20,785 nucleotides of DNA from a virus: positions 1 through 20,785 of IMG/VR virus record IMGVR_UViG_3300030012_004517; one strand, written 5' to 3'. The position numbers were made by a program, and so were the translations under genes. Of the stretch, positions 2,302-20,785 are shown piece by piece. Position 1 is the stretch's first letter; the number at the start of each line of letters is the position of its first letter. The notes under the pieces are model-generated. The model worked only from the letters and a program-made list of their open reading frames with translations, was not told the origin of the DNA and ran no database searches.

Positions 2302-2327
2302 ACCGTAGAGAAATCTACGGTTTTTTT
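2302..2327 (+). terminator. rho-independent terminator after gp32
   Basis: Arms CCGTAGA (2303-2309) and TCTACGG (2314-2320), extended by one A-T pair, enclose a GAAA tetraloop and are followed by seven T residues (2321-2327). This strong terminator ends gp32 transcription where it meets the convergent minus-strand genes. The stop codon of the HNH gene overlaps the T tract. On the minus strand there is only a weak AT-rich hairpin (2280-2296), so read-through from that side is possible. Confidence 0.9.
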
Positions 2328-2952
2328 ATTTCTGTATTTGACCTTTCTTTTTGTTTTCTTGTTCCTCTGCTCCTCTCAAAAATGCCATGTAAATTGCTCT
2401 TGCTCTGGTCATTTTTTTATCTCCGAGATCTCTAGAACCTTTTTTTAAATTTTCTCTCTGAGAAATAACTCTTCTGTTATCAGATGCATCACCTGGATGA
2501 ATCCTGTGATATCTATCTGTGTATTTTTTTCTATTCATTTGTGGCATGATATGATCTACATCATACTGTTCTCCAGAATCTTGTGATTGTCTCTGTGCAT
2601 CTGCTTTTTGAACTCTCTTTCTTTTTCTTTCAATATTCAATGCTCTTTTTGCAATTTTTTTGGTATTTGGTATAAGATTTCTATTTCCATAATCAATTAG
2701 ATCTTGCATTGAAATGGGTCTCATTACAGATCCTCTTCTTTCTTGTTGATCTTGTCTTGACTTTTTAAGTTTAAAACCGTATCTTCGCTGTCCTTGCTCG
2801 TCTCTACCAACACTTCCAATAATTCTTTTTTCCTTATCTTCATCAGACATCGCTTGATATCTAGCATTTACTTTATTCCACCTTTCTTTTTCTACATCAC
2901 TTCCTGTCTTAGGAAAGTTAACTTCAAAAATAAATTGTAGATAAGTTTTCAT
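2326..2952 (-). CDS. HNH-family (H-N-N type) endonuclease-like protein
   Basis: A 208-residue, strongly basic protein. Its C-terminal third carries an HNH-like signature: VDHIMPQ with His134, GDASDNRR with Asn159, and QRENLKKGSR with Asn168, the spacing of the beta-beta-alpha metal finger. The last position is Asn where classical members have His, as in the H-N-N subgroup. I see no zinc-knuckle cysteines. The first 125 residues are charged and probably helical or disordered, with several KKxRK stretches that could bind DNA. It is the last gene of the minus-strand operon, 4 bases after gp53. It could be a homing endonuclease or a nuclease recruited to packaging or the virion; nothing shows which. 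The start MKTYLQFIFEV is the only well-placed ATG. No clear ribosome-binding site is seen. Confidence 0.75.
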   Translation of the reverse strand: MKTYLQFIFEVNFPKTGSDVEKERWNKVNARYQAMSDEDKEKRIIGSVGRDEQGQRRYGFKLKKSRQDQQERRGSVMRPISMQDLIDYGNRNLIPNTKKIAKRALNIERKRKRVQKADAQRQSQDSGEQYDVDHIMPQMNRKKYTDRYHRIHPGDASDNRRVISQRENLKKGSRDLGDKKMTRARAIYMAFLRGAEEQENKKKGQIQK

Positions 2953-17821: not shown

Positions 17822-18799
17822 ATGGCAATTGCACCAGTCAATAAGTTTCTATCCATTGCTGTTCCTGTCGCACCAGGTGAGCAGAAACTTTATGAAGTTC
17901 CAACTGGAACTACTGCAATTTTGTTGTATGCACAAGTATCTAATGTTGGAATCGGACAAACATATCCTACAGCAACATTAATTCACCGAAGAGAATCTAG
18001 AAGCACAGGTAATAAGAGAGATATTAGGATAATCAAGGATATCGAGATACCACCAAATGATGCTGCGATACTGATTGATGGTAGATTAGTTTTAGAGAAG
18101 ACACCACTAACACTTGATAGATTATTCCTGAAGGGTGTGCAATCGGGAGTAGGCACAATCACAAATGTTGTTTATCATGAACCCACTGGTGTAGCCACTG
18201 TGACTACCATGAATCCACATAATTTTAATGTGGGTGATCCAATTACAATGAGTGGTATTGCTTTCACTTGTTCAGGGAGCACAGGAATTACAACTACAAT
18301 ATTTCCTGATCCTCAACAATCATATGTTGTAGATGAGATAACAAACGCAGTCGGAATATCACGCACGTTCACAGCAGTCATAGGTAGCTCAAAAGGATAT
18401 CCACACTTTTATAATCCAGCGATACATTATTTTGTTCGTTCAAGAAGTAATGCGGTTACTGCGAATACTGGAGCACAGTTTACACCTTCTTTTGCAACAT
18501 ATACAGGGATTGATGGTGTGCTGACTTTAACCTTGGGTGCTGGACATGGATTGGTCGCAGGAAGTAATACAGTTCAGATAGCAGATAATTCTATTATATT
18601 CACTTGTACACAAGATGGTAACTCGACAGAGCATGGATATCCAAGATCAACTGACCCATATTCAGGAACTAATATTGCCATCGCATCAACTACTACAACA
18701 ACAATCGCAGTCAGCGTTGGAATTTCATCTTCTGGTGGATTAGTCGCACCACTTCAAATGGAATTCATTGCGAGTATCCTTGAAAATAGCACTGCATAA
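17822..18799 (+). CDS. conserved virion structural protein of unknown function
   Basis: A 325-residue protein, rich in strands. Residues 1-110 form a compact domain ([76 protein letters not shown]) that I recognise as conserved in marine T4-like phages, without a known role. It is followed by an [19 protein letters not shown] domain, a motif seen in phage fibre proteins, and a second unit around [20 protein letters not shown] that may be its repeat. The protein lies between two fibre genes and shares the one-base TAATG overlap with the next, so it is probably a fibre connector or accessory. A GGAGG lies about 13 bases before the ATG, a little far. Confidence 0.7.
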
Positions 18800-20785
18800 T
18801 GGCTGAAGGAAGGAGATCAAGTCAGCGATATTTAAGTGGAAGATCCAAGATTATTGGATTTTCTGGTCTATCCACAGACAGGCATTTGTATGTGGAACCA
18901 GGTCAGGTAGAACCTAACTTGGGATTTCCTGGTGAGAAAAGTTTACCAGTATCAAGCACATATTATAAGTTAATTACAGTTGATAATGGTACAACCTTTG
19001 ATCGTTACTGGCAGGAAGACACGCCAGCAACTTTAGTAAATGGAATATCAATATTTGATGAAGGAACTCTAGTTGGAACTGCAAACACTGTATCAAAATT
19101 AAACTTTGTAGGTGCTGCAGTCACTGCAACTGCGAGTGGAACTATATCTACAATTACAGTTACACCCGTATCAATATCTACACTCGCACCACCTAATGCA
19201 AGATCAGGAGATTTATGGTGGGATAGTGATGAAGGTGAACTAAATGTTTACTATCAAGATATTAATAGTGCTCAATGGGTATTAGCAAATAGCGGAATCG
19301 GTACAACCACTGGAAGTGGTGGTGGCGGTGGCGGAGGCGGTGGTAGTGGTGCTAACGTAACTGTTTCATCCAGTGCACCATCATCACCCACCGCAGGAGA
19401 TTTATGGTGGGATAGTGACGTAGGTGAACTCTACATTTACTATGCTGATGATGATAGTAATCAATGGGTTGAAACATCTGGTGGAAGTGAGACTGTTACC
19501 ATATCAGATAATGCTCCTTCAAGTCCAAACGCTGGTGATTTGTGGTGGGAGAGTGATACTGGATCTCTAAAAATATATTACAATGATGGAGATAGTTCTC
19601 AGTGGGTAGATTCAAACGCTGGTGTGTTAAGTGCCTTATCTTCATTCAATTACTTTACTCAAAATAGTGCTGGTATTCATACACTGGGTAATGTCGGGAT
19701 CGGAACCACTAATGTAACCGCAGTTGATGCTAACAATACCGCAGTTCTTGCTGCTGGTATAGTCACTGCATTTAAATATTTTGGTGATGGTAGTAATCTA
19801 ACAGGTGTGAGTGGTGGTGCACAAGGTGCAGTTGGTGCTCAAGGTTCTCAAGGTGCGACTGGAAATACAGGGTCAACTGGTGCTCAAGGTGCAACAGGAT
19901 CTACGGGATCTCAAGGTGCAACAGGATCAACTGGTGCTCAAGGTGCTAATGGTAATACTGGTGCTCAAGGTGCTCAAGGTGTCGCTGGAACTGCAGCGGC
20001 TCAAGGTGCTCAAGGTGCACAGGGAGCGACTGGAAGTGCAGGATCAACTGGTGCTCAAGGTGCTCAAGGCGTTGCTGGAACTGCAGCGGCTCAAGGTGCT
20101 CAAGGTGCAACAGGATCAACGGGTGCACAGGGAGCACAAGGTCATCAGGGTGCAACAGGTTCAGGAGGATCAACTGGAGCACAAGGTGCTACGGGTGCTA
20201 CGGGTGCTCAAGGTGCTAATGGTAACACTGGTGCACAGGGAGCACAAGGTCATCAGGGTGCTAGTGGTTCAGGAGGGTCAACGGGTGCACAAGGAGCACA
20301 AGGACATCAAGGAGTTTCAGGTTCAAGAGTATTCACTGTAACTAATTCTGGATCTGGTGCATATGTTATTGATGGTTCAAATAATCCAACTTTAAATTTA
20401 CTTAGAGGGTTTACATACACATTTAATATTAACGCTTCAGGTCATCCATTTTTTATTAAAACTTCATCAAGCACAGGCACAGGAAATCAATATACAACTG
20501 GTGTAACAGGTAATGGAACTCAATCAGGAACTCTTACTTTTGCAGTTCCATACAATGCACCAAATACTTTATATTATAACTGCCAGTATCATGGAGCGAT
20601 GGCTGGAACCATTAATATATCAGATGTAGGTCCAACTGGTGCTCAAGGTGCTACAGGTTCAGGTGGTTCAACAGGTGCTCAAGGTGCTCAAGGACATCAA
20701 GGTGCTACAGGTTCAGGTGGTTCAACAGGTGCACAAGGAGCACAAGGACATCAAGGTGCAGGTGGTTCAGGTGGTTCAACAGGTG
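18799..20785 (+). CDS. modular tail-fibre protein: GDLWW repeats, collagen-like tracts, cupredoxin-like domain (3' end outside window)
   Basis: An open frame of more than 662 codons from ATG 18799, overlapping the previous stop (TAATG), running off the right edge. Order: N-terminal domain (1-125); three GDLWW(D/E)SD repeats with WW at residues 140, 203 and 249, with a Gly-Ser linker including nine Gly between the first two; a module at 283-337 ([15 protein letters not shown], then [18 protein letters not shown]); 57 Gly-X-Y-type triplets (340-510); a cupredoxin-like domain (about 510-610); then a second collagen-like tract. The likely role is a long trimeric fibre at the virion surface. The cupredoxin-like part has His549, Cys595, His598 and Met601, the type-1 copper ligand set with Cys-x2-His-x2-Met spacing as in amicyanin. 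Whether it binds copper is not shown. The upstream segment fits the beta-sandwich ([20 protein letters not shown]). Confidence 0.85.
19176..19620 (+). repeat. three GDLWW repeats in the fibre gene
   Basis: Three diverged protein repeats follow the pattern AP[21 protein letters not shown], then D-x-DS-x-QWV. Their WW pairs lie at 19216-19221, 19405-19410 and 19543-19548. The spacing is unequal because a 13-codon Gly/Ser linker (19312-19350) sits between the first and second units. Confidence 0.85.
19816..20328 (+). repeat. first collagen-like Gly-X-Y tract
   Basis: A run of 57 triplets, mostly [12 protein letters not shown] and GHQ, uses the codons GGT/GGA, GCT/GCA and CAA. It has no proline, so it depends on Gln/Thr-rich triplets for the helix. 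Two identical interruptions (GTA-AAQ, where Ala replaces Gly) lie at 19996-19998 and 20086-20088, exactly 90 bases apart within a near-identical DNA repeat. Confidence 0.9.
20629..20785 (+). repeat. second collagen-like tract with 54-base tandem repeat, reaching the window edge
   Basis: Gly-X-Y triplets resume after the cupredoxin-like domain. From 20647 an 18-residue unit ([18 protein letters not shown]) repeats at 20647, 20701 and, with GAG for GAT, at 20755, where it is cut off. The first tract holds dispersed copies of the same unit. Confidence 0.9.

Follow-up and report, generated by a model that had tools for sequence, protein, structure and literature searches.

The stretch of DNA analyzed here (the window) is an entire virus record of 20,785 bases with a gene content of the T4-like marine myovirus type. 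It encodes a gp32-type SSB, a helicase loader, gp53- and gp48-type baseplate proteins and a head closure protein, as well as tail tube, baseplate hub and a hub protein with tail lysozyme. Partial DNA matches were found to Prochlorococcus and Synechococcus phages and to one single-cell marine virus. Adjoining the gp53- and gp48-type genes is a 208-residue open reading frame (ORF; 2326–2952, minus strand) with an HNH-like DVDHIMPQ motif, for which a PHROG search returned no match. The end of the window is occupied by a tail-fiber ORF of at least 662 amino acids (18799–20785, plus strand), the 3' end of which is missing, as the window comprises the complete record and the reading frame runs off its end.

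This ORF matches tail fiber and tail proteins in PHROG (best E = 5e-46) and the Pfam Collagen family (PF01391, E = 1e-19). In its N-terminal half (19189–19608) we noted three repeats of a form 25 protein letters long, and a similar stretch is present in the homologue at locus L045. A first collagen-like tract of Gly-X-Y repeats (19816–20325, plus strand), recognized by PF01391, forms the upstream shaft. It is followed by a β-domain (20329–20628, plus strand; residues 511–610, VFTVTNSG...TINISDV) and by a second collagen-like tract, the downstream shaft (20632–20785, plus strand), which is cut by the record end. The collagen-like shaft and the tail gene cluster are those of a phage tail fiber, as is the collar or S74 C-terminus seen in full-length homologues (the C-terminus of the window protein itself lies beyond the record end). 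The preliminary description of this DNA had placed the domain in such a fiber, and the full-length homologues, which run from collagen through the domain and a second collagen tract to a C-terminal collar/HxH or S74 chaperone region, support this setting. The location of the domain on the virion fiber is predicted from annotation and architecture.

By direct reading of the sequence we could confirm that the domain of about 100 residues between the two Gly-X-Y tracts contains His549, Cys595, His598, and Met601, as had been claimed. His549 (codon 20443–20445), the predicted first copper ligand, lies in the segment ASGHPFF, the GHPF of which aligns at the place of GHNW in azurin. The remaining three candidates are provided by the motif CQYHGAM: Cys595 (20581–20583), the predicted thiolate ligand and sole cysteine of the domain, His598 (20590–20592), a further predicted ligand, and Met601 (20599–20601), the predicted axial ligand. 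All four codons are on the plus strand. The amicyanin-like C-x2-H-x2-M spacing with an additional histidine upstream is likewise supported by these residues.

An AF2 model of the window domain, computed from an alignment with 28 viral homologues (29 sequences in total), reached a pLDDT of 87.1 and a pTM of 0.77 and describes a Greek-key β-sandwich of about 100 residues, as in the cupredoxin fold superfamily. The best matches of this model in the PDB, identified by Foldseek, were rusticyanin and AcoP, the cupredoxin domains of NirK, laccases, plastocyanin, and a pseudoazurin that has the loop of amicyanin. VIA-align superimposed the model on rusticyanin with a Z score of 11.4 and a deviation of 2.2 Å over 96 residues, and among the best 50 PDB entries listed, all 50 were copper proteins. 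A second AF2 model, of the C-terminal domain of syn9 gp9, was based on an alignment that included eight fiber-type relatives; it reached a pLDDT of 96 and again matched cupredoxins in the PDB. The two models with their best PDB matches bear out the earlier proposal of a cupredoxin fold. The strand layout also fits a type-1 site, since His549 directly precedes the strand at model residues 46–49, and Cys595 ends the penultimate strand (model residues 85–90), after which come the C-x2-H-x2-M loop and the last strand. His, Cys, His, and Met therefore occur in the order and on the strands of type-1 copper proteins, both in the model and in the profile alignment to plastocyanin and azurin. Among BFVD models, many phage structural proteins match the domain model (best TM 0.8–0.9). 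Small β-sandwich proteins of pithovirus- and marseillevirus-like genomes also match it, with TM values of about 0.75–0.8.

At the level of sequence, the similarity to known cupredoxins is weak. A phmmer search of PDB sequences with the single domain gave chance matches and nothing convincing, so that a family profile was needed for this comparison. The profile of 50 diverse members retrieved mainly copper proteins from the same sequences (NirK with E = 0.0034, plastocyanin, azurin, auracyanin, and amicyanin). Its alignments put the YxCxxHxxM motif on known copper loops, and the match of GHPF to GHNW of azurin was low-scoring. Individual relatives matched the NCBIfam models of rusticyanin (2.2e-5), amicyanin (2.5e-4), and plastocyanin (3.8e-4). 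The window domain itself gave no match to Copper-bind (PF00127) or Cupredoxin_1 (PF13473) at the curated Pfam cut-offs; weak matches to these families were found in five and one of the 50 relatives, respectively (best E for Copper-bind: 0.0016). The best Pfam match is PF25489 (At5g54830-like), found for 16 of the 50 members. Because the window domain scores below the cut-off of this family (21 vs 27 bits), we left PF25489 aside for classification and dropped the option of filing the domain under it.

The domain was found in 358 GenBank phage records, mostly from Synechococcus and Prochlorococcus phages, with Pelagibacter phages and one Actinomycetia phage representing other hosts. Collagen-like shafts with this domain end in collar/HxH or apparent S74 chaperone regions (loci L033, L019, and L045; P-SSM2). 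Elsewhere, it forms the C-terminus of gp9, is located close to the N-terminal end of a protein from a podovirus (P-GSP1), or occupies the C-terminus of an S8 subtilisin-like protease of S-H9-1 (L246, 1318–3324). In S-SCSM2R, a family member of 168 residues that is annotated as PetE (L328, 1288–1794) adjoins an S8 peptidase; in this protein the domain is preceded by an unrelated N-terminal stretch. In P-SSM2 (L242, 5590–8745), piuC lies three genes downstream of the homologous fiber gene. Cyanophage gp9 (loci L331–L410; L329 for syn9) matches T4 gp9 over the first ~57 residues only, and its C-terminal part appears to differ from that of the T4 protein. Since the match stops at this point and the protein has a cupredoxin-like end, the fiber socket of cyanophages appears to have been rebuilt.

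Cellular relatives occur in Bacteroidota, Pseudomonadota, Myxococcota, Acidobacteriota, and archaea, and some of them are small proteins with N-termini that look lipoprotein-like or secreted. In flavobacterial lipoprotein-like proteins (L167, L183, L186, L223, L229), the domain stands alone or is joined to repeated CHRD-like domains, and marine alphaproteobacterial proteins (L181 and other loci of the PS1/OCS116 clade) contain two diverged copies in tandem. A tree of the domain, which is rough because it rests on few columns, intermixes phage and cellular domains and unites gp9 in one clade. The domain is a recurrent module that is widespread in aquatic phages and no peculiarity of one phage.

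To describe ligand conservation, we used a diverse alignment of 50 sequences that are 40–88% identical to the window domain (100 columns). His549, Cys595, His598, and Met601 are conserved in 49, 48, 48, and 48 of the 50 rows, respectively, and rank 4–7 among the 100 columns; 44 of the 50 domains contain exactly one cysteine. The seeds of our first scans contained the ligand motifs, and for this reason ligand-seeded scans alone were not used as evidence for conservation. A scan that was seeded and confirmed solely on residues between the ligands recovered 56 distinct viral domains, 54 of which keep the complete His-Cys-His-Met set. One of the two exceptions (L273) has lost the first histidine and the cysteine together with a degenerated loop; the other (L319) has lost the cysteine and the second histidine and resides in a fiber protein that also contains a complete copy. 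Cyanophage gp9 proteins picked by their first 300 residues gave the same picture: each of the 59 distinct C-termini that were complete consists of this domain, and none of them lacks any of the four ligands. Even with the ligands masked, tblastn still returned 320 phage records. These scans, which do not select on the ligands, support the expectation that the four residues stay fixed in phage homologues and are lost together when they are lost. Conservation across the family, as in type-1 copper proteins, thus indicates that the four predicted ligand residues are under selection, and such selection on all four in proteins of unrelated architecture is an argument that the site as such is important.

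This pattern bears directly on the reading that the β-sandwich is a mere spacer or adhesive knob, comparable to the Ig-like domains found elsewhere in phage, in which the ligands are inherited and no metal is held in the virion. The degenerate sites of the two exceptions, which still lie in open reading frames, are consistent with such a role. So is PF25489, a relative that presumably does without the Cys and His ligands, and the supply of copper during phage assembly is doubtful. However, a mere scaffold would let its ligands drift, and the retention of these residues in domains chosen without them, across very different architectures and down to about 40% identity, counts against this explanation. 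We consider it unlikely.

Another alternative is a genuine site that holds a different metal, such as zinc or iron, or a thiol and histidines with a redox or folding role that does not involve copper. Zinc and iron are established metals of tail fibers (gp12 and the gp37 tip of T4), some full-length homologues of the window fiber have HxH-rich C-termini, and sequence as such cannot tell the identity of a metal. The axial methionine, the order His-(Cys-x2-His-x2-Met), and the cupredoxin fold nevertheless jointly favor type-1 copper, as does a rare substitution: in one cellular relative, the methionine is replaced by glutamine, which is known as an axial copper ligand from stellacyanin. We regard a different metal, or a role of the residues without copper, as similarly improbable.

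Some cyanophages carry the plastocyanin gene petE (PMC3037559), and with one family member annotated as PetE, the domain could be thought to act as an electron carrier on host photosynthesis. Cyanophage plastocyanin is a stand-alone protein of ~100 residues, in contrast to the present domain, which is embedded in fiber shafts, gp9, and proteases and also occurs in Pelagibacter phage, Actinomycetia phage, and non-photosynthetic bacteria. On grounds of architecture and host range, we rejected plastocyanin-like electron transfer as very improbable, and we conclude that the plastocyanin genes of cyanophages are a separate matter from the fiber domain. Finally, a chance motif within an unrelated β-domain, to which the weak similarity to known cupredoxins might point, has virtually no probability left, because the four positions are conserved in the diverse alignment and both the fold and the profile matches contradict it.

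The best explanation, to which we assign a probability of about 0.72, is that the domain is a genuine cupredoxin, its predicted type-1 copper site being intact, and that it forms a mobile module in tail fibers and in the fiber connector gp9 of aquatic phages and most likely binds copper. Since the domain interrupts the collagen-like shaft, it would form a knob part-way along the fiber, and a trimeric fiber would display three copies. Most likely, each site would hold one copper ion by His549, Cys595, and His598, with Met601 in the axial position. The bound metal may fix the ligand loops and thereby make the knob stable and rigid, which in turn could help fiber assembly or contact with the host surface. 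We consider copper the most probable metal and a rigid, stable surface module the probable benefit; trimeric display, the stabilizing effect, and the role in contact are likewise what we infer. Free copper is scarce in the cytoplasm, in which the proteins of phages fold, and therefore the metal would have to be loaded later or from host stores. A more far-reaching version of the copper reading is that many aquatic phages, among them numerous T4-like cyanophages by way of gp9, bear copper-loaded blue-copper domains on their fibers and baseplates. The metal site would then be used to recognize the host, or would trigger infection by sensing copper or by a redox change. This version is tentative, and we would bet against it.

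Cupredoxins are well known and the fiber genes are annotated, and in the open-access literature we found no paper that links a cupredoxin domain to phage fiber or baseplate proteins. Iron, zinc, and calcium are metals known in phage fibers, and we know of no copper protein in any virion and came across none in the open literature searched. Should the domain bind copper, the cyanophage isolates, which number in the hundreds, would be immediately available for tests, and work on metals in the attachment of ocean phages would gain a defined, mutable site. At the minimum, a domain that hundreds of genome annotations call either hypothetical or gp9 gains a fold and a testable function.

Compared with known systems, the domain resembles rusticyanin, azurin, amicyanin, and plastocyanin in its predicted fold, in the histidine before a strand, and in the cysteine that ends the penultimate strand, and it shares the C-x2-H-x2-M loop with amicyanin. 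It differs from mononuclear type-1 copper proteins by HPF at the first histidine, where these have PHN, HNW, or HSF, and by an identity of only ~20%. Unlike soluble electron carriers such as rusticyanin, it would present its putative copper site within a virion fiber. In PHROG 677 (baseplate wedge tail fiber protein connector, cyanophage gp9), the domain accounts for the C-terminal ~100 residues (E = 3.3e-30); the family is annotated as gp9 only, with no mention of copper or cupredoxins, and the window copy resides in a collagen-like fiber instead. The phage tail fiber-like protein PSSM2_028 of P-SSM2 and its homologue in P-SSM5 contain a domain 66–67% identical to that of the window. In P-SSM2 it likewise lies between two collagen tracts, and the complete C-terminal region is known, whereas the end of the window fiber is beyond the record. 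A metal in a phage fiber, here a predicted one, also recalls the HxH iron sites at tail-fiber tips that underlie the "Ferrojan horse" idea (PMC11705849), and some homologues of the window fiber have HxH-rich tips as well; the window domain differs from these sites in its fold, its residues, and its predicted metal.
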